Shown piece after piece: positions 7,883-59,896 of a stretch of 64,000 nt of DNA. A program made the position numbers and the translations under genes. The notes beneath the pieces were generated by a model that did not search any database, was not told where the DNA came from, and was given only the letters and a program-made list of their open reading frames with translations. The DNA lies in assembly GCA_016887505.1 (NCBI GenBank), contig CP069393.1, positions 496,001-560,000 on the forward strand, written 5' to 3'. Numbering within the stretch: the first letter of the stretch is position 1; every line of letters starts with the position of its first letter. The stretch comes from Clostridia bacterium. Lineage in GTDB: Bacteria > Bacillota > TC1 > UBA5767.

Positions 7883-9028
7883 ATGGCAGAAAAGAAGCAA
7901 TTTAAAGATTTAGATATTTTATACTTGGTTATGCTATTATTGATCCTGGTTATTAGTGGTGTGATACAGGCTACAGCATCTTTTGGTGTAAAGCCTAGCG
8001 AACCATACTACTATTTACAACGCCATTTGTTTTCAATTGGGACAGGGTTAATACTGTTTGCCATAATAGCGATAATAAATTATCGAGAATATCGAACCTA
8101 CAGCCGATTGATTTATGCTGGTATGTTGTTGATACTAATTTTGGTCTTGATACCAGGTATCGGTGCGATTAGAAACAACGCAAGAAGTTGGTTTATTCTA
8201 GGGCCACTCTCATTACAACCAGCAGAGGTAGCCAAGGTGTTGTTTATCATACTTTTTGCTGATTTCTTGGATAAGCGTAAGAATCATTTGGAAACACTAG
8301 TGCAACTCATTCCTTGTTTCCTATATCTAGCAGTTCCGGTAGGGCTGATTCTGATGCAACCAGATATGGGTACATCGCTTGTATTTTTTGCGATTACTTT
8401 TTTCATGTTGTTTGCAGCAGGAGCGAATCCGAAAATACTGTTTGGACTCTTGGGACTGGGTATTGGTTCAGTAGTCTTACTTTTGGTCATGCATTACCAG
8501 ATGGGTATGCCGCTTCCCTTAGAGGACTACCAGTTGATGCGATTCACAGTTTTCCTGAATCCCTACAATGATGGGAAGGGAGGACTCGGTGCAGGCTATA
8601 ATATTATCCAGTCTCTGATTGCCATTGGTTCAGGAGGATTATTTGGCAAAGGATTTATGCAGGGAACCCAAAGCCAGAGTAACTTTTTGCCATTTCATCA
8701 TACCGATTTTGTTTTTGCTGTAATCGGAGAAGAATTTGGATTTATAGGTAGTATCGTAGTCTTAGGATGTTTCTTATTTCTTATGTATAGGGCCCTGATG
8801 ATTGCTAGAAAATCATTAGATCTTTATGGCGCATTGATTATCTCCGGGGTGGTTGGTATGATGTTTTTCCATATCGTAGAGAGTGCTGGCATGGCCATAG
8901 GGGTTATGCCTATAACTGGTATTCCCTTCCCTATTTTGAGTTCAGGTGGATCCTCGATGTGGGCCAATATGGCAGCACTAGGCTTAATCGTATCAGTAGA
9001 TTTGCATAAGAAAACAATTCGTTTTTAA
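7883..9028 (+). CDS. rodA: Peptidoglycan glycosyltransferase RodA
   Basis: RodA is a SEDS-family polytopic glycosyltransferase that polymerises lipid II into glycan strands with PBP2. The 381-residue protein has about ten transmembrane helices. Family segments include SWFILGPLSLQPAEVAKV, MQPDMGTSLVF and the C-terminal PITGIPFPILSSGGSS. It is the last gene of the mre operon block; the next gene follows after nine bases, so transcription may continue. Confidence 0.97.
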   Translation: MAEKKQFKDLDILYLVMLLLILVISGVIQATASFGVKPSEPYYYLQRHLFSIGTGLILFAIIAIINYREYRTYSRLIYAGMLLILILVLIPGIGAIRNNARSWFILGPLSLQPAEVAKVLFIILFADFLDKRKNHLETLVQLIPCFLYLAVPVGLILMQPDMGTSLVFFAITFFMLFAAGANPKILFGLLGLGIGSVVLLLVMHYQMGMPLPLEDYQLMRFTVFLNPYNDGKGGLGAGYNIIQSLIAIGSGGLFGKGFMQGTQSQSNFLPFHHTDFVFAVIGEEFGFIGSIVVLGCFLFLMYRALMIARKSLDLYGALIISGVVGMMFFHIVESAGMAIGVMPITGIPFPILSSGGSSMWANMAALGLIVSVDLHKKTIRF

Positions 9029-9037
9029 GGAGTAAAT

Positions 9038-10927
9038 ATGTCTAAATGTGTAGATAAAAATTGGCTAGAGGAAGCAATACTTCCTTTGGTGGAAAAACCC
9101 ATCCGATATACAGGTGGGGAATTGAACAGTATTGTTAAAGATCATGAAGAGTGCTCGGTTCGTTTTGCTTTTGGTTTTCCGGATGTTTATGAGGTTGCCA
9201 TGAGTCATTTGGGAACCCAAATTCTCTATAAGGTTGTCAATGACCATGAGGATTTTTGCATGGAGCGAGTTTTTTGCCCCTGGGTGGATATGCAGGAAAA
9301 AATGAAGGAAAATGATATTCCACTTTACACACTGGAAACGTTTACCGAGGTGAAGGATTTCGACTTCCTTGGTTTTACATTGCAGTATGAGATGAGCTAT
9401 ACCAATATACTATCCATGCTAGAACTTGCAAAAATTCCTTTTTACCGAGAAGAACGTATGGAAGGGAATTATCCACTAGTGCTAGGGGGAGGGCCTTGTG
9501 CCTTTAATCCTGAGCCCATCGCAGATTTCTTTGATTTATTTTTAATTGGTGATGCTGAGGAAACCATTCTTGAACTATTCTCGTTATATGCAAAAGTGCA
9601 AGCAGAAGGTGGAGACAGGGTCACTTTTCTTAAGAAAGCGTGTAAATTACCAGGCATATATGTTCCTGAATTCTATGATGTTTCCTATTCACCTGATGGT
9701 GTGGTGGAAAAATTTGAGCCATTGATACCGGAAGCGCCGGCTAAAGTAGTAAAAAGCCTTCTGAAAGATTTAGAATTGGCTACTTTTCCTGATAAGCCAA
9801 TTGTTCCATACATGGACATTATTCATGATCGAATCATGCTTGAAGTTCTTAGGGGCTGCACACATGGTTGTAGGTTTTGTCAGGCCGGTGTTTTATATCG
9901 TCCGGTTCGCGAAAGAAGCAAGGAATTATTGCTGAAACAAGCGAAAGATCTTATGAAGAATACTGGACATGAGGATATTTCGCTTACTTCACTGTCAACG
10001 GCAGACCATACTCAACTAAATCAACTGGTTGATGAATTGCAACAGGTATGTGCAGGTACAGGGGTTGGGATTAGTCTTCCATCTCTACGGGTAGATACAT
10101 TTTCTATGGGGATGGCAAAAAAAATTGCTTCTGTTCGCAAAACAGGTTTGACATTTGCACCTGAGGCTGGTACTCAGCGCATGAGAGATATTATTAATAA
10201 AGGTGTGACGGAAGAAAATTTGATGAAGGTTTCAGAGGATGCTTTTAGGGCTGGTTGGGAAAGACTGAAACTTTACTTTATGATTGGACTGCCTTTTGAG
10301 CGAGATGAGGATTTAGAAGGTATTGTGCATCTGGGCAATAAGGTAATCTATTTGGGAAAACGAGTTGCATCTGAAATTGGTTCTAAACGTAAGATTAGCG
10401 TCACGCTTAGTGCTTCTAGCTTTGTACCTAAACCATTTACACCGTTCCAGTGGATTGCCCAAGACCCTCTATCTGAATTAGAACGCAAGCAGAGGCTTAT
10501 TAAAGAAAAAGTGAGAACTAAGAATCTTGTATTCAACTACCATAATGCCAAGGTATCCCATATGGAGGCTGCCTTTGCTAAAGGAGACAGGCGCTTAAGC
10601 AAGGCGCTTGTGGCAGCGCATAAAAAAGGATGCCGCTATGACGGCTGGGATGAATTCTTTAATTTTAAGTGGTGGCAAGAAGCGTTTGAGGAGTGCGGGC
10701 TTACATCGTCAGATTTTGCGCAGCGTGAATTTAAAGAAAATGATATTCTTCCATGGGATTTTATCGATACGGGCGTGCGAAAAAGTTTCTTGTATGCTGA
10801 ACTTTTAAAAGCGAAGTCAGAGGAATTGACACCGGACTGTCGAGATGAGGGATGCAACACTTGTGGTGTGTGCATGGATATGGATTGTGATATGTTGCTA
10901 CAAGAGGAGGTATCCAATGAAATATAG
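9038..10927 (+). CDS. TIGR03960-type radical SAM protein with B12-binding-like N-terminus
   Basis: This 629-residue protein belongs to the TIGR03960 group of radical SAM enzymes, whose function is unknown. The radical SAM cluster motif is C274-x3-C278-x2-C281 in RGCTHGCRFCQAG. A Rossmann-like cobalamin-binding-type region lies before it (about 25-180, including FDLFLIGDAEETI). The extreme C-terminus holds a dense cysteine motif, C601-x4-C606-x2-C609-x2-C612-x4-C617, which could hold another Fe-S cluster or metal. The stop overlaps the ATG of the DUF2344 gene, with the ribosome binding site inside this coding region. This pair followed by RNase G/E and L21 recurs in Clostridia. It probably modifies an RNA or protein of the translation machinery, but that is inference. 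Confidence 0.88.
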   Translation: MSKCVDKNWLEEAILPLVEKPIRYTGGELNSIVKDHEECSVRFAFGFPDVYEVAMSHLGTQILYKVVNDHEDFCMERVFCPWVDMQEKMKENDIPLYTLETFTEVKDFDFLGFTLQYEMSYTNILSMLELAKIPFYREERMEGNYPLVLGGGPCAFNPEPIADFFDLFLIGDAEETILELFSLYAKVQAEGGDRVTFLKKACKLPGIYVPEFYDVSYSPDGVVEKFEPLIPEAPAKVVKSLLKDLELATFPDKPIVPYMDIIHDRIMLEVLRGCTHGCRFCQAGVLYRPVRERSKELLLKQAKDLMKNTGHEDISLTSLSTADHTQLNQLVDELQQVCAGTGVGISLPSLRVDTFSMGMAKKIASVRKTGLTFAPEAGTQRMRDIINKGVTEENLMKVSEDAFRAGWERLKLYFMIGLPFERDEDLEGIVHLGNKVIYLGKRVASEIGSKRKISVTLSASSFVPKPFTPFQWIAQDPLSELERKQRLIKEKVRTKNLVFNYHNAKVSHMEAAFAKGDRRLSKALVAAHKKGCRYDGWDEFFNFKWWQEAFEECGLTSSDFAQREFKENDILPWDFIDTGVRKSFLYAELLKAKSEELTPDCRDEGCNTCGVCMDMDCDMLLQEEVSNEI

Positions 10928-11606
10928 GATAGAGTTTGCGAAAAAGAATTCTGTTGCTTTTGTATCGCATCTGGAATTGATGAAAGTATTTTCGCAAGCA
11001 ATTCGCCGTGCAGGCCTGCCAATTGCGTGTACGGAGGGGTTTAATCCAAGACCCAAAATCAATTTTTCTTCAGCAATCGCAACAGGCATGACTAGTCTTG
11101 CCGAATGCGCCGAAATGGAGCTTACGAAGGAAATGGATGCAGATAGTGTTATGGATGCGTTGAATAAAACATTGCCCGAAGGGTTTTCTGTGGGGGCAAT
11201 TCGTCAGTTGGAGGGAAAACATAAGTCATTAATGGCCCTATTATCCCATTCCGATTATACGCTCCATGTGAGATTGGCGAAACCATATACTGAAGAAGAT
11301 AGATTGGTTGAAGCTGTGAACTCTTTTTTGGCGAAAGAGAGCATTGTGATAATAGCGAAACGTAAGAATAAGGTTAAGGAAAAAGATATACGAGCTGGCA
11401 TTTTAAGTTTAGAAGCGAATTTATCTGAACCTTTTTTAATTCTAAATATGCAATTGGTGGCTGGTAGTAATGGTAATATTCGCCCAGAACACGTTGCAGA
11501 AGCATTTTTGGAACAGCTTTCAATTCAGTACCTTACCATGCGCATAGAAAAGACTATGACCTATGGAATTAAGAATGATCAGAAAACCCGCCTTTTCTTA
11601 GTATAG
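10917..11606 (+). CDS. DUF2344 / TIGR03936 radical SAM-associated protein
   Basis: A 229-residue protein of unknown function that nearly always accompanies the upstream radical SAM enzyme, and in some species is fused to it. The N-terminus YRIEFAKKNSVAFVSHLELM and the segment GFNPRPKINFSSAIATGMTS are typical. I chose the ATG at 10917 because it follows AGAGGAGG at a good distance and gives the family N-terminus. It overlaps the upstream stop by 11 bases. It is probably a substrate-recruiting or RNA-binding partner, but there is no direct evidence in the sequence. Confidence 0.85.
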   Translation: MKYRIEFAKKNSVAFVSHLELMKVFSQAIRRAGLPIACTEGFNPRPKINFSSAIATGMTSLAECAEMELTKEMDADSVMDALNKTLPEGFSVGAIRQLEGKHKSLMALLSHSDYTLHVRLAKPYTEEDRLVEAVNSFLAKESIVIIAKRKNKVKEKDIRAGILSLEANLSEPFLILNMQLVAGSNGNIRPEHVAEAFLEQLSIQYLTMRIEKTMTYGIKNDQKTRLFLV

Positions 11607-11615
11607 GAGCTAACA

Positions 11616-13076
11616 ATGAAATGTATCGTAGTGCATCGCACCTTAAAAGAAACATTCATATCTGTGGTAGAAAATGACCGCCTGGTTGAAGTATTCATTG
11701 AGCCAGTTGACAATCAAAGCATCGTGGGCAATGTCTATGCAGGAGTCGTTGAAAATGTACTCCCAGGGATGCAGGCTGCTTTTGTTGATATTGGGTTGGA
11801 AAAGAATGCCTACCTTTATATTGAAGATATCGTATCCAAGGCAGTACTTTCTGAAGTTCGTGAAAAGGATACAAAGCTGAACATTCAAGACTATATCAAA
11901 CAAGGTCAGCCATTGATGGTTCAAATCAAGAAGGCACCAGTAGATAAAAAAGGCGCAAGAGTGACATTGGATATCACCTTACCTGGACGTTATTTGGTGG
12001 TGATGCCTCACAATGAATATATTGGCATTTCCAAACGCATTACCAACCCGGAAGAAAGAGAACGCCTAAGAAGATTGGCAGAGGAAATGTTGCATGACGG
12101 CAGAGGGATTGTTATTCGAACAGTAGCGGAAAACATCGAAGAAGAAAAACTTCGGAAAGACTATGATAAGCTAAATGATGTTTGGGAAGAAATTCAAGCA
12201 GGTTACCAAAAAAATAAAGGACAGAAAAGTTTAATCCGTGGCGATGTGGATTTTGCAACCAGAGTTTTCAGGGATGTAATTAAGCAAGATGTAGATCGCA
12301 TCACGGTTATGCATAAGGAAACTTTCCATGTCTTAAAGGATTATATAGAACGTTTTATACCAGAAGCCAGAGGAAAGATATTCTATATGGAGCCAGGGAC
12401 TTTCCATGAATTTGATGTATTGGAAATGCTTCGAAAAGCATTGAAGCGCAAAGCATGGTTAGACAATGGCGGTTATCTGATTATCGATAAAACAGAGGCC
12501 TTGACCGTAATCGATGTTAATACTGGAAAATATACGGGTAAGAAAGATTTAGAGGAGACGGCATATAATACGAATTTGTTGGCAGCCAAGGAAGTGGCAA
12601 GACAAATTCGCTTGCGGAATATGGGTGGCATTATTGTGGTGGATTTCATTGATATGAAAAAAGAAGAACACCGCTTTAATCTGGTTAAGCTACTAGAAGA
12701 GGAGACTGCCAAGGATTCTATGAAGGTTCAGGTTATGGGAATCACCAAACTGGGACTGGTGGAATTGACTCGCAAAAAGGCGAAACGCTCTTTATCTAGT
12801 TTGCTCGAAAAGACTTGCCCTATTTGTCAGGGCAAGGGCAAGGTACTTGCTGAGGAGAATATTCTTAGGTTAATTGCCTATCGTGCAATCGAGGTAGCTA
12901 GCACTTTGGCTAGTAGTACGATATACATCAGAATGAGTCCTTCTGTGTATGAATATCTTATGCATCACGAACCGGACTATTTTGATTTGCTTGAAAAACA
13001 GTATGATAAGAAAATAGTTATACAGAAAGATAAAACGCTTGCTTACGATGAATTTTACGTAGATGGAGAAAAATAG
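11616..13076 (+). CDS. rng: Ribonuclease G/E
   Basis: This is a single-strand-specific endoribonuclease of the RNase E/G family, acting in rRNA maturation and mRNA decay. The 486-residue protein has RNase G layout: an S1 domain (about 35-125), an RNase H-like middle, and the DNase I-like catalytic domain with D300 (TVIDVNTG) and D343 (VVDFIDM) for Mg2+. A zinc-link C401-P-I-C404 follows for dimerisation. It lacks the long C-terminal degradosome scaffold of RNase E. RNase J is also present at the window end, so this organism has both decay systems. Confidence 0.95.
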   Translation: MKCIVVHRTLKETFISVVENDRLVEVFIEPVDNQSIVGNVYAGVVENVLPGMQAAFVDIGLEKNAYLYIEDIVSKAVLSEVREKDTKLNIQDYIKQGQPLMVQIKKAPVDKKGARVTLDITLPGRYLVVMPHNEYIGISKRITNPEERERLRRLAEEMLHDGRGIVIRTVAENIEEEKLRKDYDKLNDVWEEIQAGYQKNKGQKSLIRGDVDFATRVFRDVIKQDVDRITVMHKETFHVLKDYIERFIPEARGKIFYMEPGTFHEFDVLEMLRKALKRKAWLDNGGYLIIDKTEALTVIDVNTGKYTGKKDLEETAYNTNLLAAKEVARQIRLRNMGGIIVVDFIDMKKEEHRFNLVKLLEEETAKDSMKVQVMGITKLGLVELTRKKAKRSLSSLLEKTCPICQGKGKVLAEENILRLIAYRAIEVASTLASSTIYIRMSPSVYEYLMHHEPDYFDLLEKQYDKKIVIQKDKTLAYDEFYVDGEK

Positions 13077-13209: not shown

Positions 13210-13521
13210 ATGTACGCAGTAATTCAAAATGGTGGAAAACAGTTCAAAGTTTCTGAAGGCGATGTAGTGAGAATGGAAAGAATTGATGCCGATGTCGATA
13301 GTGTTATCGAAGCGGAGCAAGTTCTCATGATTGCTGATGGCAGTGATTTAAAGGTTGGTAAACCGGTTGTAGAAGGCGCTAAAGTTACTCTTAAAGTAAC
13401 AGGCCACGGCAAAGGTGTTAAAGTTAAGATTTTTAAATACAAACCGAAGACAGGCTATCGTAAGAGACAAGGCCATCGTCAACCTTACACTGAAGTAGTA
13501 GTAGAAAAAATCGAGGCCTAA
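13210..13521 (+). CDS. rplU: 50S ribosomal protein L21
   Basis: A 103-residue protein of the large subunit that binds 23S rRNA. It has the conserved start [18 protein letters not shown] and the C-terminal signature [17 protein letters not shown]. Its ATG follows GAGGAGGTG. It overlaps the prp start by one base (TAATG) and heads the L21-Prp-L27 operon found across Firmicutes. Confidence 0.99.
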
Positions 13522-13865
13522 TGATTCATATCGTTTTTATAAGACAAGACCAGCGTTATAGCCTTATCGAAGTATCCGGACATGCTGGATATGAAGATAG
13601 TGGCAAAGATATAGTATGTGCCGGAATTTCTGCATTGCTTGGCGGAATGCTGAACGGCTTGGAGTTTTTCCTGGGGGATGAATTTGTCTATCAAGTTGAC
13701 CCAGAGGGACATGCGAAAGTTGTTTTAGCTGGTACAATGTCAGATAAGCTTTATGAAAAAGCCTACACGATTATTAAGACATTTGAATTAGGGGTAAGAA
13801 TGGTTCATCAAGATTATCCCGATTATGTGATAATCCACAAAGAGGAGGTGGACAGAGATGATTAG
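13521..13865 (+). CDS. prp: Ribosomal-processing cysteine protease Prp
   Basis: Prp removes the N-terminal extension of L27 in Firmicutes, a step needed for ribosome assembly. The 114-residue protein has the catalytic pair H21 and C33 in [20 protein letters not shown]. It lies between rplU and rpmA, overlapping both. Its target site is visible in the next gene, which makes the assignment firm. Confidence 0.95.
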
Positions 13866-14142
13866 AATAGATCTTCAATTATTTGCCCACAAAAAAGGGC
13901 AAGGAAGCTCGAGAAACGGAAGAGATTCTGAATCGAAACGTTTGGGACTTAAAAAACACGACGGCATGGTTGTGAAAGCTGGAAACATTATTACACGTCA
14001 GAGAGGAACTAAGATTCATCCTGGCAACAATGTTGGAATCGGCAAAGATGACACTTTGTTTGCATTAATCGACGGTACTTTACGATTCGAGAGAAAAGGC
14101 AAAACAAGAAAGCAAGCTAGTGTATATGCCGTAGAAGCGTAG
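13858..14142 (+). CDS. rpmA: 50S ribosomal protein L27 with cleavable N-terminal extension
   Basis: A 94-residue L27 whose mature N-terminus reaches the peptidyl-transferase centre. The first nine residues, MIRIDLQLF, are the Firmicute leader, and Prp should cut after F9 to expose [15 protein letters not shown]. The rest ([27 protein letters not shown]) is standard. The ATG overlaps the prp stop by eight bases. A terminator follows. Confidence 0.98.
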
Positions 14143-14150
14143 TTAATAAA

Positions 14151-14176
14151 TCCCCTGTTTTCAGGGGGTTTTTTTG
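14151..14176 (+). terminator. Terminator after rpmA
   Basis: TCCCCTG, loop TTT, CAGGGGG-type stem, then a run of seven T's. Confidence 0.9.
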
Positions 14177-14237
14177 ATTTTTAGGATAGAATCCTGAAAA
14201 TAGGGTATAATATGATTTGATATCAGGGAGTGATACC

Positions 14238-15515
14238 ATGTTTTTTGACCGAGTGAAAATTAATGTTAAGGCGGGGAATGGCGGCGATGGCTGCATCTCT
14301 TTCCGTCGTGAAAAATATGTAGATATGGGTGGACCCAATGGTGGAGACGGCGGGGATGGAGGCAGCATCTACCTGGAGGTGGATGAGTCGCTGAGAACCT
14401 TGGTGGACTTTAAGTATAAACGCCATGTTAAGGGTGCACGCGGTGTACACGGCAGAGGCTCTAACATGCACGGAAAAAACTCCGAACCCATTGTTCTTAA
14501 GGTACCACCAGGTACTTTGGTGAAGGACGAAGAAAGTGGCGTTGTTTTAGCTGATTTAACCCAACATGGTCAAAGAATTCTAGTGGCTAAGGGTGGACGT
14601 GGCGGTCGTGGTAATGCACGCTTCATGACCAATAAGAACAAGGCACCAAGAGTTGTGGAAAACGGAGAGCCTGGTGAAGAAAAATGGATTGAACTAGAGC
14701 TTAAACTACTGGCGGATGTCGGTCTAGCAGGTTACCCTAATGCAGGGAAGTCGACCCTTATTTCATCCATATCCGGTGCAAAGCCAAAAATAGCAGATTA
14801 TCCATTTACAACGCTGACCCCCAACCTAGGTGTGATAGAATTAGGGGAACAAAGTTTTGTTATGGCTGACATTCCGGGACTCATACAAGGTGCGCACCTA
14901 GGAGCAGGTCTGGGCCATGATTTTCTAAAACATCTTGAGCGAACCAGATTGATTGTTCACGTTGTAGATGTGGGTACCGAAGTAGAGGGCTTAATCCGTG
15001 ATCCATATGAAGAATGGGTGCAGATTAATGATGAACTAAGAAAATATAGTGAGAACTTTTTGGGTAAGTATCACGTCGTGGTGGCTAGCAAGATGGATCT
15101 GCCTGGGGCTGAGGATAGACTAGAAATATTCCGCAATAAGCTACCAAATGAGGTTGAGGTATTCCCGATTTCCGCTGTAACGAAACAAGGAACAAAAGAA
15201 CTTTGTTATCGACTAGCAGAATTGCTAGAAGAAATAGAAGAACCGATTTTGCAAGAGCTAACCGATTACAAGTTGACTGTTGCCAAAGAAGATGAAAAAT
15301 TCCAGATCCACCGTGATAGTGCAGGAACCTATGTTGTGGAGGGTAAGGAAATTACTAAGAAATTCATCATGAACCGGATGGATAGTGACGAAGCTCTGAT
15401 GCATTTCCATAGAATTCTAGTTGCTATGGGTGTTATTAAAGCACTGAAAAAGAAAGGCATTCAGCCTGGAGATACAGTAAGAATCATGGATATGGAATTC
15501 GATTTTGTCGAATAG
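14238..15515 (+). CDS. obg: GTPase Obg
   Basis: Obg is an essential GTPase that acts in late 50S assembly and stress signalling. The protein is 425 residues from the ATG at 14238, chosen because MFFDRVKINVKAGNGGDG is the family N-terminus and GGGAG lies just upstream. It has the glycine-rich Obg domain (about 1-158, with GGPNGGDGGDGG and GGRGGRGN), the G domain with P-loop GYPNAGKST and switch DIPGLIQGAHLGAGLG, and a C-terminal OCT domain. A TATAAT at 14206-14211 is a possible -10 element. Confidence 0.98.
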   Translation: MFFDRVKINVKAGNGGDGCISFRREKYVDMGGPNGGDGGDGGSIYLEVDESLRTLVDFKYKRHVKGARGVHGRGSNMHGKNSEPIVLKVPPGTLVKDEESGVVLADLTQHGQRILVAKGGRGGRGNARFMTNKNKAPRVVENGEPGEEKWIELELKLLADVGLAGYPNAGKSTLISSISGAKPKIADYPFTTLTPNLGVIELGEQSFVMADIPGLIQGAHLGAGLGHDFLKHLERTRLIVHVVDVGTEVEGLIRDPYEEWVQINDELRKYSENFLGKYHVVVASKMDLPGAEDRLEIFRNKLPNEVEVFPISAVTKQGTKELCYRLAELLEEIEEPILQELTDYKLTVAKEDEKFQIHRDSAGTYVVEGKEITKKFIMNRMDSDEALMHFHRILVAMGVIKALKKKGIQPGDTVRIMDMEFDFVE

Positions 15516-22317: not shown

Positions 22318-22815
22318 GTGCGGCCGGGCAAGGTTGCTTATTCTAGTAGGTGAGAGTCCTATTCAGGTAATGTCTAGCCAACAGCCTGGTAGTGAGATCT
22401 TGGAGATATATCGGTAACGATATGTTTTAAGCGTAGATCCGCAAGGTGACAGGCCGAAAGCGATAGTTGAAGTGATTGAGCTCCGAAATTATAGTAGTTG
22501 GGATAGGCAGATGCGCTTACACACGCAGAATGCAAAACTGGCAGACACGCTAAGGTGAGTCTCTGTCAGCGCCCCGGAGTCTTAGAACTTGGCATGTCAT
22601 ACGATTCGAATAAGTGGCAACCCGGGAGACCCTGATTCCTCCAGGAAACTGGTATATCCTACAAGTGATAATCAAGCAAGGAAGATAAATGGGAGTCAGG
22701 GAGTCGGATGATTGCATAGTACCAATGAAGCAGGGTAATTCCCGTGGAGGAAAGGCAATCACATCAGAAGGCTCTTGTAGAGGAAACAATAATCACACAC
22801 AGAGGTGAATAAATA

Positions 22816-24114
22816 TTGGAAACAAAACTTACAAGAATAGCCTGTATTGCAAAAGCAAAGCCCAAAGAACGCTTTACTAGTCTAGTACACCTGATTGATG
22901 AAGAACTGTTAAAACAGTGCCATCAGGAACTTAATGGTAAGAAGAGTGTTGGTGTCGATGAAGTTACCAAAGAGAAATATCAACAGAATTTGGAAGATAA
23001 CATCAGAGTGTTGCATCAAAAACTACGTCAGATGAGCTACAAACCCCAGGAAGTAAAACGAGTTTATATTCCCAAAGCGGGAAGTCATAAGAAGCGAGCA
23101 CTGGGTATACCAACCCATGAGGATAAAATTGTTCAGTTGGCGGTCAATAAGATTTTGACAGTTATCTATGAACAGGATTTCTTAGATTTCTCCTATGGGT
23201 TTCGTCCAGGCAAGAATTGTCATGACGCAATACGGGGACTCAATACCATCTTGGTTACTAAGAAGACCAACTGGGTAGTGGATGCAGATATTCGAGGATT
23301 CTTTGACAATGTTGACCATCAATGGATGAGGAAAGCTTTGGAAGTAAGAATTGCGGATAAACAACTCATTAGACTTATCATGCGCATGCTGAAAAGCGGC
23401 ATCATGGAGCAGGGCGTAAGACAAAGTACTTTGGTTGGCACCCCGCAAGGCGGGGTTATTTCACCACTATTAGCGAATATTTATCTTCATTACATCTTGG
23501 ATTTGTGGTTTGAGAAAAGTATCAAGAAGCATAATAGAGGTGAAACGGAGATGGTTCGGTACGCAGATGACTTTGTGTGTTGTTTTCAATATGAAAATGA
23601 AGCGAAGCAATTCTATCAGCAACTACAAGAAAGATTGAGAAAATTCGGTCTTGAGGTAGCGCATAATAAAACGAGCATCATCGAGTTTGGTAGATATGCC
23701 CATGCAAACAGACAAAAGAAAGGATTAGGTAAGCCTGCTACATTCAATTTTCTAGGGTTTACCCATTACTGTGGTAGAAGTCGTAACGGTAAGTTCCGAG
23801 TAAAACGTAAAACAGAGAAGAAAAAGTTCTGGGGAGCTATTGCAAGAATGAAGGATTGGCTTAAGCAGCATCGAAACTTGCCAATTCGTGATATCTTGCA
23901 AGGCGTCAGGATAAGACTCTTAGGACACTACCGTTATTATGGCATCACAGACAACAGTCCAATGCTTTCGAAATATCAGTATTGGGTTACATGGCTCATG
24001 TTTAAGTGGATTAATCGGCGAAGTCAACGCAACAGTTATACGTGGGAGAATTTTGAAATGTTTTTAAGAACAAATCCTTTGCCAGGACCGAAGGTATACA
24101 TCAGTATCATTTAA
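22816..24114 (+). CDS. ltrA: Group II intron reverse transcriptase/maturase
   Basis: A 432-residue intron-encoded protein that helps splicing and copies intron RNA into DNA. It has reverse transcriptase domains 1-7, with the catalytic MVRYADDFVCCF, the upstream GTPQGGVISPLLANIYLH, and KPATFNFLGFTHYCGR. A maturase domain X follows (to about 400). The end lacks an obvious HNH endonuclease domain. The start is a TTG after AGAGGTG. The frame is open throughout, so the protein may be active. Confidence 0.95.
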   Translation: METKLTRIACIAKAKPKERFTSLVHLIDEELLKQCHQELNGKKSVGVDEVTKEKYQQNLEDNIRVLHQKLRQMSYKPQEVKRVYIPKAGSHKKRALGIPTHEDKIVQLAVNKILTVIYEQDFLDFSYGFRPGKNCHDAIRGLNTILVTKKTNWVVDADIRGFFDNVDHQWMRKALEVRIADKQLIRLIMRMLKSGIMEQGVRQSTLVGTPQGGVISPLLANIYLHYILDLWFEKSIKKHNRGETEMVRYADDFVCCFQYENEAKQFYQQLQERLRKFGLEVAHNKTSIIEFGRYAHANRQKKGLGKPATFNFLGFTHYCGRSRNGKFRVKRKTEKKKFWGAIARMKDWLKQHRNLPIRDILQGVRIRLLGHYRYYGITDNSPMLSKYQYWVTWLMFKWINRRSQRNSYTWENFEMFLRTNPLPGPKVYISII

Positions 24115-24148
24115 TAGCTTTTGCAAACAAGGTCAATCTTATGATGAG

Positions 24149-24181
24149 GAGCCGTGTGCGTAAATAGCGCAAGCACGGTTC
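24149..24181 (+). ncRNA. Group II intron domain V
   Basis: A short hairpin with GAGCCGTG / CACGGTTC outer stem, a two-base AG bulge and a TGCG / CGCA inner stem. The terminal loop reads about AAAT rather than a GNRA tetraloop, which is unusual. Confidence 0.75.
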
Positions 24182-24310
24182 TGGGAGGGGTGTAGGTTCA
24201 ACTGAGTTATCAGGAGGCCTGCATCTACTCGACAAAACAAAATGAGCCAAAAACTCACAACTCGGTTACAATAAATGTGCTAGCAAATACTAAACCGAGG
24301 AGTGTGAATC

Positions 24311-25528
24311 ATGGCTCAGTACAATATTACCCTAACCGAAGAACTCTTGCACGGTCTTTTCGTCTCAGATGGAAAAGATGAAGCTTTTTCTAACCTATTG
24401 GAAGAGATATTCAACCAAGTATTGGTTGCTCAATCTAATGACCAAATTGGTGCTGCCCCATACGAACGCACCGACGAAAGGAAGGCTTACCGTAACGGAT
24501 ACAGGGACCGACAGTTGACCACCAGGGTGGGAACACTGACGCTGCACGTCCCAAGACATCGTAACGGCGACTTCAGCACTGAACTTTTTGAGCGTTACCA
24601 ACGCAGCGAGCAAGCCCTGCTTCTGGCCATGATGCAAATGGTCGTGAGCGGTGTATCCTCCAGGAAGGTGGAAGACATCACCTATGAACTCTGTGGCAGG
24701 AAGTTCTCCAAGTCTATGGTTTCTAAACTGTGCGAAAAGTTGGATCCCATCGTAAAGAATTTTCAGAACCGTCCGCTCGAAAAGCATTATCCCTTCCTGG
24801 TGGTGGATGCCCTTTACCTCAAGGTACGCGAAGATAACCGAGTCCGTTCCAAAGGACTACTTGTAGCTGTGGCTGTTAACCAAGAAGGTTACCGTGAAAT
24901 CATCGGTTTCAGGGTGGCAGACACAGAGTCCGAAACAAGCTGGAGAGAGTTCTTCTCATCCTTGAAGGACCGAGGTCTTAAAGATGTACATCTGGTCACT
25001 TCGGACAGCCACAGAGGACTTGTGAACGCCATCAGGAAACATTTCCAGGGCGCTACCTGGCAGAGATGCCAAACACACTTTTCAAGGAACGTGCTGGACT
25101 TGACACCAAAGTCACTGCAGCCAGAACTGAAAGAACATCTACGTAGGCTCTATGAAGCTGTTGATCTAGAAAGTGCCACCAAAGTTCGTGATGAGATTAT
25201 AGACAAGTACGAAACCAAAGCATCACGTGCAATGAATCTTCTAGATGAAGCCTTTGCCGATGTCACAGCTGTTCTCAGCGTTCCCTTAAAATACAGGAAA
25301 CGGCTCCGAACCAGCAACGGCATTGAGCGACTAAACCAGGAGATTCGCCGTAGAGAGCGAGTCATACGGATCTTCCCGAATGAGGCTTCGGTTATCCGTC
25401 TCATTGGCGCCCTACTCATGGAACAGGACGAGAAATGGCAGACTGGCCGCAAGTATTTTGAGATGGATCTTTACTACCAGACGTTTTCTGAATCTAAGAA
25501 TTCTGCAAAGGCTGCTGCAGTCGCCTAA
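24311..25528 (+). CDS. IS256-family transposase (first element)
   Basis: A 405-residue DDE transposase of the IS256/MULE-type fold. The catalytic residues are D166 (VVDALY), D232 (VTSDSHRGL) and E339 (TSNGIERLNQEIRRR). The C/H motif WQRCQTHFSRN is present. Base composition looks richer in G and C than the neighbours, which suggests recent transfer. The gene is intact, but the intron separates it from the outer end of the left inverted repeat, where the promoter of such elements often lies. It clearly differs from the second transposase in this window. Confidence 0.95.
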   Translation: MAQYNITLTEELLHGLFVSDGKDEAFSNLLEEIFNQVLVAQSNDQIGAAPYERTDERKAYRNGYRDRQLTTRVGTLTLHVPRHRNGDFSTELFERYQRSEQALLLAMMQMVVSGVSSRKVEDITYELCGRKFSKSMVSKLCEKLDPIVKNFQNRPLEKHYPFLVVDALYLKVREDNRVRSKGLLVAVAVNQEGYREIIGFRVADTESETSWREFFSSLKDRGLKDVHLVTSDSHRGLVNAIRKHFQGATWQRCQTHFSRNVLDLTPKSLQPELKEHLRRLYEAVDLESATKVRDEIIDKYETKASRAMNLLDEAFADVTAVLSVPLKYRKRLRTSNGIERLNQEIRRRERVIRIFPNEASVIRLIGALLMEQDEKWQTGRKYFEMDLYYQTFSESKNSAKAAAVA

Positions 25529-32235: not shown

Positions 32236-32390
32236 TATTTCTGGCTAAATCTTGATTTGAACTAGTCCCGTTATGAAGATGAGGTAGATTTATCTGGTAT
32301 TTTGTATAGATAATAAACCAGGAATAAAGATTTTCTTTCAGTACTATGCTACCCAACGGATTAAACCTGATGTATAATAAAAATAATAGA

Positions 32391-32516
32391 AGAGGCACTT
32401 CCGGAAAAAGGGTGTGATTCCCTTACAGTCCTAGCTACCGTTATAGTCGGAAAACGCAAGTTGCTCATATTTATCTCTAGGGTTAGACTTCGGGCTACCC
32501 TAGGTGGCCTTTTTAT
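32391..32516 (+). ncRNA. Probable cobalamin riboswitch
   Basis: The core reads GGTGTGATTCCCTTACAGTC (32411 on), then CTAGCTACCGTTATAGTCGG. This follows the order of the B12-box region (GGTGAAAATCC, ACAG.CC..GC.ACTGT). AGGCAC near the start can pair with GTGGCCT near the end, and a hairpin with CTAGGGT / ACCCTAG followed by a T run sits at 32476-32515. The usual CCCGC segment is degenerate, so this may be a variant. The downstream genes fit vitamin B12 uptake. Confidence 0.6.
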
Positions 32517-32670
32517 TTTGGCTAATCGGTTAAATAAGCTTTGTTGCGGTTGATGTTTTATGCATTTCTTCTTGAGATAGATAGGCAAAGAGTTCTGAGC
32601 ATAATGGCGTATACAATAAAATGACACAGGTAATTTCTAATCTGGATTGGTAAGTATTAGGAGGTGTAGT

Positions 32671-33153
32671 ATGGAAGCGAAAGAAGTAGCTTTTGCAGCA
32701 TTATTTGCTTCTTTGTTTACTTTGGGTGATTTTATATCTGTTTATAACTTCCAAGTTGTAACCGCATTTATGGTAGTTTGCTTTGTATATTGTGGGTATA
32801 GGGTACTTTTGTCAGCCACTTTAATATATAGCCTAATCGATGTTATCTTTGGTTTGGGCATGTATTGGACGTTGGTTCTGAATTGGGAAGTAGCAGCGTT
32901 GAGTGTTATTTTGGTCCTACACTACAGACCCAAATCGTATGGATTAGCAGCTGGCTTAGCCTTTCTAACGTTCAGCTTAGTAGATGCTGTGGTAGCATCG
33001 TTGATTTTAAGAGTATCACTATGGGCCTATTTAATTGCAGGTAGTTTTTTCGTAGTACGTGGTGTGGTGTCTGGCCTAATCATTGGTACTTTACTCGTGA
33101 AAATTCTAGAGAGAAGGACGAATCTACATGAAGCATATAGGAAAATTAGCTAA
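32671..33153 (+). CDS. ECF transporter S component-like membrane protein
   Basis: A 160-residue very hydrophobic protein with five or six transmembrane helices, in the size range and style of substrate-capture (S) components of energy-coupling-factor transporters. I chose ATG 32671 after AGGAGGTG. The N-terminal MEAKEVAFAALFASLFTLGDF resembles the S-component first helix. No ATPase or T component is nearby, so it would share a common ECF module encoded elsewhere. The upstream riboswitch and the overlapping DUF4430 gene suggest a corrinoid as substrate; this is inference. Confidence 0.7.
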   Translation: MEAKEVAFAALFASLFTLGDFISVYNFQVVTAFMVVCFVYCGYRVLLSATLIYSLIDVIFGLGMYWTLVLNWEVAALSVILVLHYRPKSYGLAAGLAFLTFSLVDAVVASLILRVSLWAYLIAGSFFVVRGVVSGLIIGTLLVKILERRTNLHEAYRKIS

Positions 33154-57071: not shown

Positions 57072-57148
57072 CGGGGCATAGCGCAGTTTGGTAGCGCACC
57101 TGGTTTGGGACCAGGGGGTCGGGGGTTCGAATCCCTCTGCCCCGACCA
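57072..57148 (+). tRNA. tRNA-Pro (anticodon TGG)
   Basis: Acceptor CGGGGCA pairs with TGCCCCG, then A and encoded CCA. The anticodon loop reads TTTGGGA between CCTGG and CCAGG. First gene of the first tRNA operon; nearly a copy of the tRNA at 57628. Confidence 0.96.
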
Positions 57149-57159
57149 CATTATAATAT

Positions 57160-57234
57160 GGCCCGTTGGTCAAGCGGTTAAGACACCGCCCTTTCACGGC
57201 GGTATCAGGGGTTCAATTCCCCTACGGGTCACCA
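57160..57234 (+). tRNA. tRNA-Glu (anticodon TTC)
   Basis: Acceptor GGCCCGT pairs with ACGGGTC, then ACCA. The anticodon loop has CTTTCAC between CCGCC and GGCGG. CCA is encoded. Confidence 0.95.
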
Positions 57235-57241
57235 AAATCGC

Positions 57242-57317
57242 GGCCCCGTGGTGTAGTGGTTAACACGTCGGCCTGTCACGCCGAAGATCGTCGGTTCAAA
57301 TCCGATCGGGGTCGCCA
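57242..57317 (+). tRNA. tRNA-Asp (anticodon GTC)
   Basis: Acceptor GGCCCCG pairs with CGGGGTC, followed by GCCA. The anticodon arm is TCGGC CTGTCAC GCCGA. Confidence 0.95.
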
Positions 57318-57366
57318 TTTTTTAAAATAAAATATAATAAAGTTTCCGATTATCGGAGCTGCACGT

Positions 57367-57452
57367 GGAGGAATTCCCGAGCTGGCCAAAGGGGGCAGAC
57401 TGTAAATCTGCTGGCAACGCCTTCGCAGGTTCGAATCCTGCTTCCTCCACCA
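57367..57452 (+). tRNA. tRNA-Tyr (anticodon GTA), copy 1
   Basis: 86 bases with a long variable arm (class II). Acceptor GGAGGAA pairs with TTCCTCC, then ACCA. The anticodon loop has CTGTAAA. Identical to the copy at 57811. Confidence 0.96.
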
Positions 57453-57457
57453 ACCAT

Positions 57458-57532
57458 TGGGCTGTCGCCAAGCGGTAAGGCACCGGGTTTTGGTCTCGGC
57501 ATTCGTTGGTTCGAATCCAGCCAGCCCAGCCA
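57458..57532 (+). tRNA. tRNA-Gln (anticodon TTG), copy 1
   Basis: Acceptor TGGGCTG pairs with CAGCCCA, then GCCA. The anticodon loop has TTTTGGT. Identical to the copy at 57902. Confidence 0.95.
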
Positions 57533-57554
57533 AAACACCCTAGGGTGTTTTTTT
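57533..57554 (+). terminator. Terminator of the first tRNA operon
   Basis: AAACACCCT directly joined to AGGGTGTTT, then more T's, right after the Gln tRNA. Confidence 0.85.
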
Positions 57555-57585
57555 GTAACAGAGTTCAAATTTTCAATAAAAGTTA

Positions 57586-57615
57586 TTGACTTTAGCTAAG
57601 CAAACTCCTTATAAT
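57586..57615 (+). promoter_or_regulatory. Promoter of the second tRNA operon
   Basis: TTGACT (57586-57591), 18 bases, TATAAT (57610-57615), 12 bases before the second Pro tRNA. Confidence 0.8.
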
Positions 57616-57627
57616 GTATCTTGTCGT

Positions 57628-57704
57628 CGGGGCATAGCGCAGCTTGGTAGCGCACCTGGTTCGGGATCAGGGGGTCGGGGGTTCAAATCCCTTTGCCCCG
57701 ACCA
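57628..57704 (+). tRNA. tRNA-Pro (anticodon CGG)
   Basis: Same acceptor and arms as the tRNA at 57072, but the loop reads TTCGGGA, so the anticodon is CGG. The 5' flank TCTTGTCGT is also shared, showing a duplication followed by an anticodon change. Confidence 0.95.
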
Positions 57705-57728
57705 AAGTAACAAAAACTTAATATCTTT

Positions 57729-57804
57729 GCCGACGTAGCTCAACTGGAAGAGCAGCTGATTTGTAATCAGCAGGTTGCGGGTTCGAGTCCCATCGTCGGC
57801 TCCA
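57729..57804 (+). tRNA. tRNA-Thr (anticodon TGT)
   Basis: Acceptor GCCGACG pairs with CGTCGGC, then TCCA. The anticodon arm is CTGAT TTGTA ATCAG in outline, giving TGT. Confidence 0.94.
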
Positions 57805-57810
57805 TAATGT

Positions 57811-57896
57811 GGAGGAATTCCCGAGCTGGCCAAAGGGGGCAGACTGTAAATCTGCTGGCAACGCCTTCGCAGGTTCGAATCCTGCTTCCTCCACCA
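57811..57896 (+). tRNA. tRNA-Tyr (anticodon GTA), copy 2
   Basis: Identical to 57367-57452 over all 86 bases, including the variable arm and encoded CCA. Confidence 0.96.
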
Positions 57897-57901
57897 AGCA
57901 T

Positions 57902-57976
57902 TGGGCTGTCGCCAAGCGGTAAGGCACCGGGTTTTGGTCTCGGCATTCGTTGGTTCGAATCCAGCCAGCCCAGCCA
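57902..57976 (+). tRNA. tRNA-Gln (anticodon TTG), copy 2
   Basis: Identical to 57458-57532. The five-base spacer to the Tyr gene differs from copy 1 at one base only. Confidence 0.95.
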
Positions 57977-59676: not shown

Positions 59677-59721
59677 CAGTCTAAAGCATATTTGATACTT
59701 TTAAATGAATAACGAGTTCTC

Positions 59722-59880
59722 ATTTTTTGAGGAGCAAGGTCAATTAGTACGAAAGTGGAGCCGCAAGCGTTGATACTTTTAGAAAAGGTGACTTTGCCGA
59801 AGTGGATTGGTGCAAACAATCTGCTGGTTCTACATCGAATAGGTGTAGTGCTGTCACCTTAGGTGGAGTGCATTAGATGA
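59722..59880 (+). ncRNA. Lysine riboswitch (L box)
   Basis: The core has GAGGAGC (59729), AAAAGGTGACTTTGCCGAAG (59783 on; the AAGG..GCCGAAG hallmark), GCTGGTT, CTGTCACC and GGTGGAGTGC, in the order of the lysine aptamer. It precedes dapB-grx-asd-dapA, the lysine/diaminopimelate genes. The expected action is to stop transcription when lysine is plentiful. Confidence 0.92.
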
Positions 59881-59896
59881 GCATAAACTGTTGAGA

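Follow-up and report, generated by a model that had tools for sequence, protein, structure and literature searches.

A 64,000-nucleotide stretch of Clostridia bacterium DNA (contig CP069393.1, positions 496,001 to 560,000), hereafter called the window, carries a gene for a B12-type radical S-adenosylmethionine (SAM) protein of family TIGR03960, an overlapping gene for a DUF2344 protein, and a gene for a ribonuclease (RNase) of the G/E family (Table 1). We investigated the first two, which we believe form a two-subunit enzyme that modifies RNA. The 9038-10927 product scored 859.7 bits against TIGR03960 (curated cut-off 462.3), the DUF2344 product 200.3 bits against TIGR03936 (cut-off 71.9) and 177.5 bits against PF10105 (cut-off 23.8), and the RNase 449.8 bits against TIGR00757 (cut-off 325.95). 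The mechanical list of open reading frames (ORFs) put the DUF2344 start too early, at 10845; as the sequence reads, the ATG at 10917, six bases past a GAGGAGG, is the better start, and given this ATG the two genes overlap by 11 bp (10917-10927). Family scores and coordinates agreed with the arrangement described in an earlier note on this DNA, in which the overlapping genes lie just before RNase G/E and then L21-Prp-L27-Obg. The same note knew of no established function for the pair, and we likewise found no functional paper on TIGR03960 or TIGR03936/DUF2344 in the open-access papers searched.

Results

The radical SAM protein and its cysteine tail

The core of the enzyme belongs to the radical SAM superfamily (PF04055, 72.4 bits; cut-off 29.5), and C274, C278 and C281 of its CxxxCxxC motif were invariant in 26 aligned proteins. 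Its next-best NCBIfam matches were B12-radical SAM families. The N-terminal part was cut free of the radical SAM motif and compared by hhalign with the B12 domain of B12-radical SAM proteins, using a template of only five such proteins from the phylum; the probability was 90.9%, and the score of 48.3 exceeded the highest of 150 shuffles (28.7). This profile evidence indicates that the N-terminal domain is related to the B12-binding domain of those proteins. Pfam at E ≤ 0.001 yielded only PF19864 and PF04055 on the enzyme, with no match to PF02310, UPF0004 or TRAM, and the methylthiotransferase families scored far below their cut-offs (TIGR00089, 18.5 versus 251 bits; TIGR01579, 22.5 versus 357 bits). 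The methylthiotransferase closest to the radical SAM core in PDB searches was RimO (4jc0, E 3e-4).

Elsewhere in the window, an adenosylcobalamin (AdoCbl)-II riboswitch at 32385-32465 is followed by a membrane ORF that resembles the S component of an energy-coupling factor transporter. The riboswitch suggests, circumstantially, that the organism handles cobalamin.

The earlier note had pointed to five cysteines near the C terminus, and they do lie at residues 601, 606, 609, 612 and 617. We found that C601, C606 and C609 were invariant in the 26 aligned proteins and that four cysteines were present in all 46 distinct tails (51 loci). The fourth followed the third by three residues in 29 tails, 3 of which were missed by the search pattern and read by eye, and by 5 to 13 residues in the other 17. 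The strong conservation among relatives on which the note had staked its claim was thereby confirmed, with the conserved set reduced from five cysteines to four; C617 is an extra residue, dispensable for the site. Judged by this comparison, the tail is a conserved four-cysteine site and putatively binds metal. The sequence does not distinguish between iron-sulfur (Fe-S) and zinc. An auxiliary Fe-S cluster would suit an enzyme of an Fe-S class in which such clusters are common; CxxCG is also a zinc-knuckle signature and the fourth ligand shifts by up to ten residues, both of which would fit a structural zinc site, an option that we take seriously without expecting it.

Fold and active site of the DUF2344 partner

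Searching the PDB sequences with a single DUF2344 sequence gave no credible match, and the best match of a 25-sequence profile was TruA (1vs3) at E 0.15, not significant alone. An hhalign comparison of 30 DUF2344 with 21 TruA sequences gave a probability of 86.2% and a score of 46.4 over 140 columns, whereas 300 column shuffles gave a mean of 14.4 (standard deviation 2.6, maximum 23.3) and reversed profiles scored 15.1 and 14.6 (probability 0.2% for both). The corresponding probability against TruB was 0.4%, which is little informative since TruA against TruB likewise fails (0.7%). An AlphaFold model of DUF2344 built from three sequences (predicted local distance difference test score, pLDDT, 63.9; predicted template modelling score 0.42) was searched against the PDB with Foldseek, and the best matches were TruA, Pus1 and Pus3, with E values from 6e-6 (1vs3) to 1e-3. 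Among the 22 rows with E ≤ 0.001, 19 were pseudouridine synthases, complexes thereof or a mitoribosomal chain, and the remaining 3 were ACT-type ferredoxin-like proteins. The relation is already published and is not new here: the part of PMC7955657 that deals with Pfam clans gives 'PseudoU_synth_1+DUF2344' as a split of the pseudouridine synthase domain. Profile, modelled fold and Pfam clan together indicate a pseudouridine synthase fold of the TruA/Pus1 type for DUF2344.

The column aligned to the catalytic aspartate of TruA (column 55) contained P, A, S, G or K, and aspartate was found there in none of 76 sequences. The invariant or near-invariant residues were H18, L19, R31, G41, P44, G57, E63 and Y114, of which Y114 (74 of 76 sequences) aligns near the TruA tyrosine pair. 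Acidic residues occupied columns 20 (62 D/14 E), 63 (73 E/3 D) and 66 (62 D/14 E). As a separate observation, one pair-carrying genome of the window's order (G014, 98% complete) had no match to TIGR00071 (TruA) at E 0.001.

Obligate pairing of the two families

We determined the co-occurrence of the two families in 199 genomes from the window's phylum, using the profile cut-offs of TIGR03960 and TIGR03936. The enzyme was present in 180 genomes, about nine in ten, and DUF2344 in 179; both were found in 179 and neither in 19, and the single genome with the enzyme alone (G109) was 81% complete. A genome with a partial enzyme match under the cut-off (G073, 1.5e-59) was counted as lacking the enzyme. 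The Fisher p value for co-occurrence, 1e-25, overstates independence because the genomes are related. DUF2344 lay immediately 3' of the enzyme in all of 71 loci, one per taxonomic family, at a distance between BLAST ends of less than 400 bp in 70 loci and of 605 bp in one. Sixty of these loci were picked one per family among the 150 enzyme matches listed, and the other 11 comprised 7 without RNase E/G, 1 fusion, 2 with a divergent RNase G and 1 high-scoring copy. Because adjacency holds in 71 of 71 loci, the arrangement is more than chance. Single-reading-frame fusions of both proteins occurred in L089 and L090 (family f30) and in L091 (family f24), with the cysteine motif at the junction between the enzyme and DUF2344 parts. 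These results show that the pairing is obligate. Each family exceeded its cut-off in two of 14 named control genomes, Synechococcus elongatus and Thermotoga maritima being the only names that matched both; the control genome of Haloferax volcanii matched neither.

The pair was also encountered in records labelled as viral. It lies on an IMG/VR contig whose other ORFs look phage-like (L034) and in a 'Bacteriophage sp.' entry of human faecal origin that is marked unverified (L104), either of which is perhaps a prophage edge or bacterial DNA. In the record of Microcystis phage MaAM05 (L100), a radical SAM gene that shares 30% identity with the query is next to trpS, mqnC and ispG, and the DNA resembles that of a bacterium more than that of a phage.

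RNase G and the ribosome genes around the pair

RNase E/G lay within 3 kb downstream of the pair in all 64 loci from genomes that carry it, and the 7 loci without RNase G were exactly those selected for its absence. Across the 199 genomes, 161 had both the enzyme and RNase E/G, 19 the enzyme only, 12 RNase E/G only and 7 neither. In this count divergent or fragmentary RNase E/G (G026, G142, G168, G197) was taken as positive and weak-only RNase E/G (G073, G099, G133, G139, G162, G169) as negative; when the curated RNase E/G cut-off was applied instead, the numbers became 157, 23, 12 and 7. RNase G is a near-fixed positional neighbour of the pair and not a functional requirement.

The order L21-Prp-L27-Obg recurs in relatives. 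The pair is followed directly by these four genes, with no RNase G, in L080, L081 and L085, and by L21-L27-Obg, again without RNase G, in Collinsella (L103); the actinomycete Nonomuraea has the order RodA, pair, RNase G, L21, L27, Obg. In Ruminococcus albus 7 (L102, pRUMAL02) the pair precedes L19-lepB-YlqF-RNase HII, where YlqF is annotated as a ribosome biogenesis GTPase. pRUMAL02, a plasmid of 352 kb, has been typed as conjugative and carries L19, YlqF and RNase HII along with the pair. A transposase-like ORF of 454 amino acids (aa) on the opposite strand separates DUF2344 from L21 in L083 (3696-5057), whose genome lacks RNase E/G. In five pair-less genomes (L092-L096), RNase G, L21 and L27 keep their positions. 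Between RodA and RNase G these genomes have SpoIVFA/SpoIVFB-like genes, as read from translations, and a non-orthologous substitute for the pair was sought in this gap and not found.

Within the window, the identities of RodA, RNase G and Prp come from family scores, and those of L21, L27 and Obg from a reading of their translations. The L21-Prp-L27-Obg genes may form a transcription unit apart from the pair and RNase G, because they are preceded by a promoter-like site of their own and by a possible L21 leader that scores below threshold; promoter-like sites were not in excess over the whole region (9 found versus 10.7 expected). Further along, at 22353-24233 and right behind leuS, group II intron ends (RF02005, RF00029) flank a 432-aa reverse-transcriptase-like ORF and adjoin a 405-aa ORF at 24311-25528 that is presumably transposase-like. 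A cluster of nine transfer RNA (tRNA) genes and a lysine riboswitch occupy 57072-57973 and 59719-59881.

Table 1. Features of the pair, its neighbours and the AdoCbl-II riboswitch in the window
Feature	Position	Strand	Basis
RodA, upstream neighbour	7883..9028	+	family score
TIGR03960 B12-type radical SAM protein, 629 aa	9038..10927	+	profile score
N-terminal domain PF19864, residues 59-210	9212..9667	+	Pfam and hhalign
Radical SAM core PF04055, residues 269-432	9842..10333	+	Pfam
CxxxCxxC motif C274/C278/C281	9857-9880	+	within radical SAM core
Four-cysteine auxiliary site C601, C606, C609, C612 (putative metal site)	10838..10873	+	tail comparison
C617 codon, outside the conserved four-cysteine site	10886..10888	+	
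GAGGAGG, ribosome-binding-site-like, ahead of the DUF2344 start	10904..10910	+	sequence
TIGR03936/DUF2344 partner, 229 aa, predicted TruA-like fold without the catalytic Asp	10917..11606	+	
RNase G/E family ribonuclease, conserved neighbour	11616..13076	+	TIGR00757
Promoter-like TTGACA-18-TATTAT, 11/12, between RNase G and L21	13087..13116	+	
Candidate L21 leader RNA RF00559, below gathering score	13130..13200	+	24.2 of 36 bits
L21-Prp-L27-Obg ribosome genes	13210..15515	+	
AdoCbl-II riboswitch and following 168-aa membrane ORF	32385-33153		

Discussion

A probable two-subunit RNA-modifying enzyme

We favor the reading that the pair is a two-subunit radical SAM enzyme that modifies RNA, with a dead pseudouridine synthase presenting the RNA, and consider it reasonably likely. 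DUF2344, having lost the catalytic aspartate, would bind the RNA and present a nucleotide without isomerizing it. The radical SAM subunit would dock by way of its four-cysteine tail region, the junction of both parts in the natural fusions. The cluster held by C274, C278 and C281 would then generate a 5'-deoxyadenosyl radical, and the presented nucleotide would be modified. In this chemistry, for example C-methylation or a larger radical addition, the B12-type domain at the N terminus and the putative auxiliary metal site may both take part. Ribosomal RNA (rRNA) would be the likeliest target, at or near the stage of RNase processing and 50S assembly.

Several observations weigh against this reading. 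The DUF2344 model is of moderate confidence, its TM-scores are about 0.4, and unrelated models also reach VIA-align Z values in its range of 7 to 8.7; random half-sets of sequences bring the hhalign probability between DUF2344 and TruA to 37-89%. The model of the radical SAM subunit, built from three sequences, was unusable (pLDDT 40.5). The DxHxxG motif was found in just 1 of 30 N-terminal regions; it is not required in every B12-radical SAM enzyme. The ribosomal neighborhood is not universal either, as only 47 of the 71 loci had L21 within 6 kb, with several of the others ending at a contig edge, and the pair is distant from ribosome genes in, for example, L087 and Monoglobus (L105). The loss of catalytic residues is also compatible with a protein substrate.

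Such a substrate is the main conceptual rival: the pair would modify L21, L27, another ribosomal protein or RNase G. The positional link to RNase G and L21/L27 fits this, as does the similarity to RimO, which modifies a ribosomal protein. RNase G is ruled out as the sole substrate by the 19 genomes with the enzyme and without RNase E/G and the 12 with the reverse, and in genomes that lack the pair RNase G, L21 and L27 stay where they are. Because DUF2344 belongs to an RNA-binding fold class of the RNA-modification type, a ribosomal-protein substrate is less likely, as is RNase G, and we regard this weakened alternative as improbable. The earlier note had proposed modification of rRNA, tRNA or a ribosomal protein, and the TruA/Pus1-like fold of DUF2344 speaks for the RNA part of that proposal at the expense of the protein part. 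Between the two RNAs, the same enzyme could act on tRNA, its partner recognizing it as TruA does the anticodon arm, and the nearest solved folds (TruA, Pus1/Pus3) include several in tRNA complexes. This fold class does not fix the RNA, however, since related folds also act on rRNA, and the pair has RNase G and genes for the large ribosomal subunit as its neighbors. A tRNA substrate seems to us rather unlikely, and rRNA is probably the better candidate.

Other alternatives concern the reaction and its product. DUF2344 might be an active pseudouridine synthase whose product the radical SAM protein works on, as the TruA-like fold and Y114 near the tyrosine pair would allow. The catalytic position without a single aspartate, and acidic columns with mixed D and E, unlike a catalytic aspartate, leave this barely credible. 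Known rRNA marks were also considered as the product: the cytidine derivative N330 at 16S position 1404 (E. coli numbering), on which a map of Clostridium acetobutylicum reportedly bears, and the dihydrouridine and methyl-dihydrouridine marks said to occur in Clostridium sporogenes 23S rRNA. N330 is reported in T. maritima and was first described in H. volcanii (PMC2584109). T. maritima matches both families; N330 is disfavored and quite improbable as the product because H. volcanii matches neither family. On the C. sporogenes marks, a passage in the review PMC9176250 gave no help.

In a more specific form of the two-subunit reading, the dead pseudouridine synthase would hold the RNA and offer its base to a radical SAM protein of the cobalamin type, and the product would be an as yet unassigned rRNA hypermodification. 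We put this forward tentatively, as possible but on balance doubtful. To our knowledge, such a pair would be the first cobalamin-radical SAM RNA modifier, and none was found in the open-access papers searched. The pair occurs in about nine in ten of the genomes sampled in the phylum and in S. elongatus and T. maritima, yet is without a known product. The combination of a radical SAM protein with a dead pseudouridine synthase makes a concrete prediction, namely an RNA product that is lost in either deletion. If true, it would offer a way to fill a gap in bacterial RNA modification maps and show that a modification fold has been reused as a substrate-presenting subunit.

Comparison with known systems

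By score, the window proteins are ordinary members of TIGR03960 (rSAM_fuse_unch) and TIGR03936/PF10105, families whose fused form occurs in relatives and whose function is not assigned in NCBIfam or Pfam; in this the window pair shows no difference. DUF2344 resembles the TruA/Pus1-type pseudouridine synthases in profile, predicted fold and Pfam clan and differs from them in the absent catalytic aspartate and the obligate radical SAM partner. The enzyme is like the B12-radical SAM proteins (TIGR04013; TIGR04014, the McrA glutamine C-methyltransferase) in its secondary NCBIfam matches and N-terminal domain, with cobalamin binding putative, but has an additional C-terminal four-cysteine site and an RNA-type partner. 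With MiaB, MtaB and RimO it shares a related radical SAM core, a tie to translation and, if the putative auxiliary cluster is real, the combination of an auxiliary with a radical SAM cluster; it differs in that no UPF0004 or TRAM domain was found and in that its extra cysteines are C-terminal. Because defining features of both groups are missing, the pair is classed neither as a pseudouridine synthase nor as a methylthiotransferase. TYW1, of wybutosine synthesis, modifies RNA as a radical SAM enzyme and has an auxiliary Fe-S cluster; it is a single chain with other partner domains, and no match of the window enzyme to its family was seen. On how it works, the pair is probably best grouped with the radical SAM RNA-modifying enzymes.

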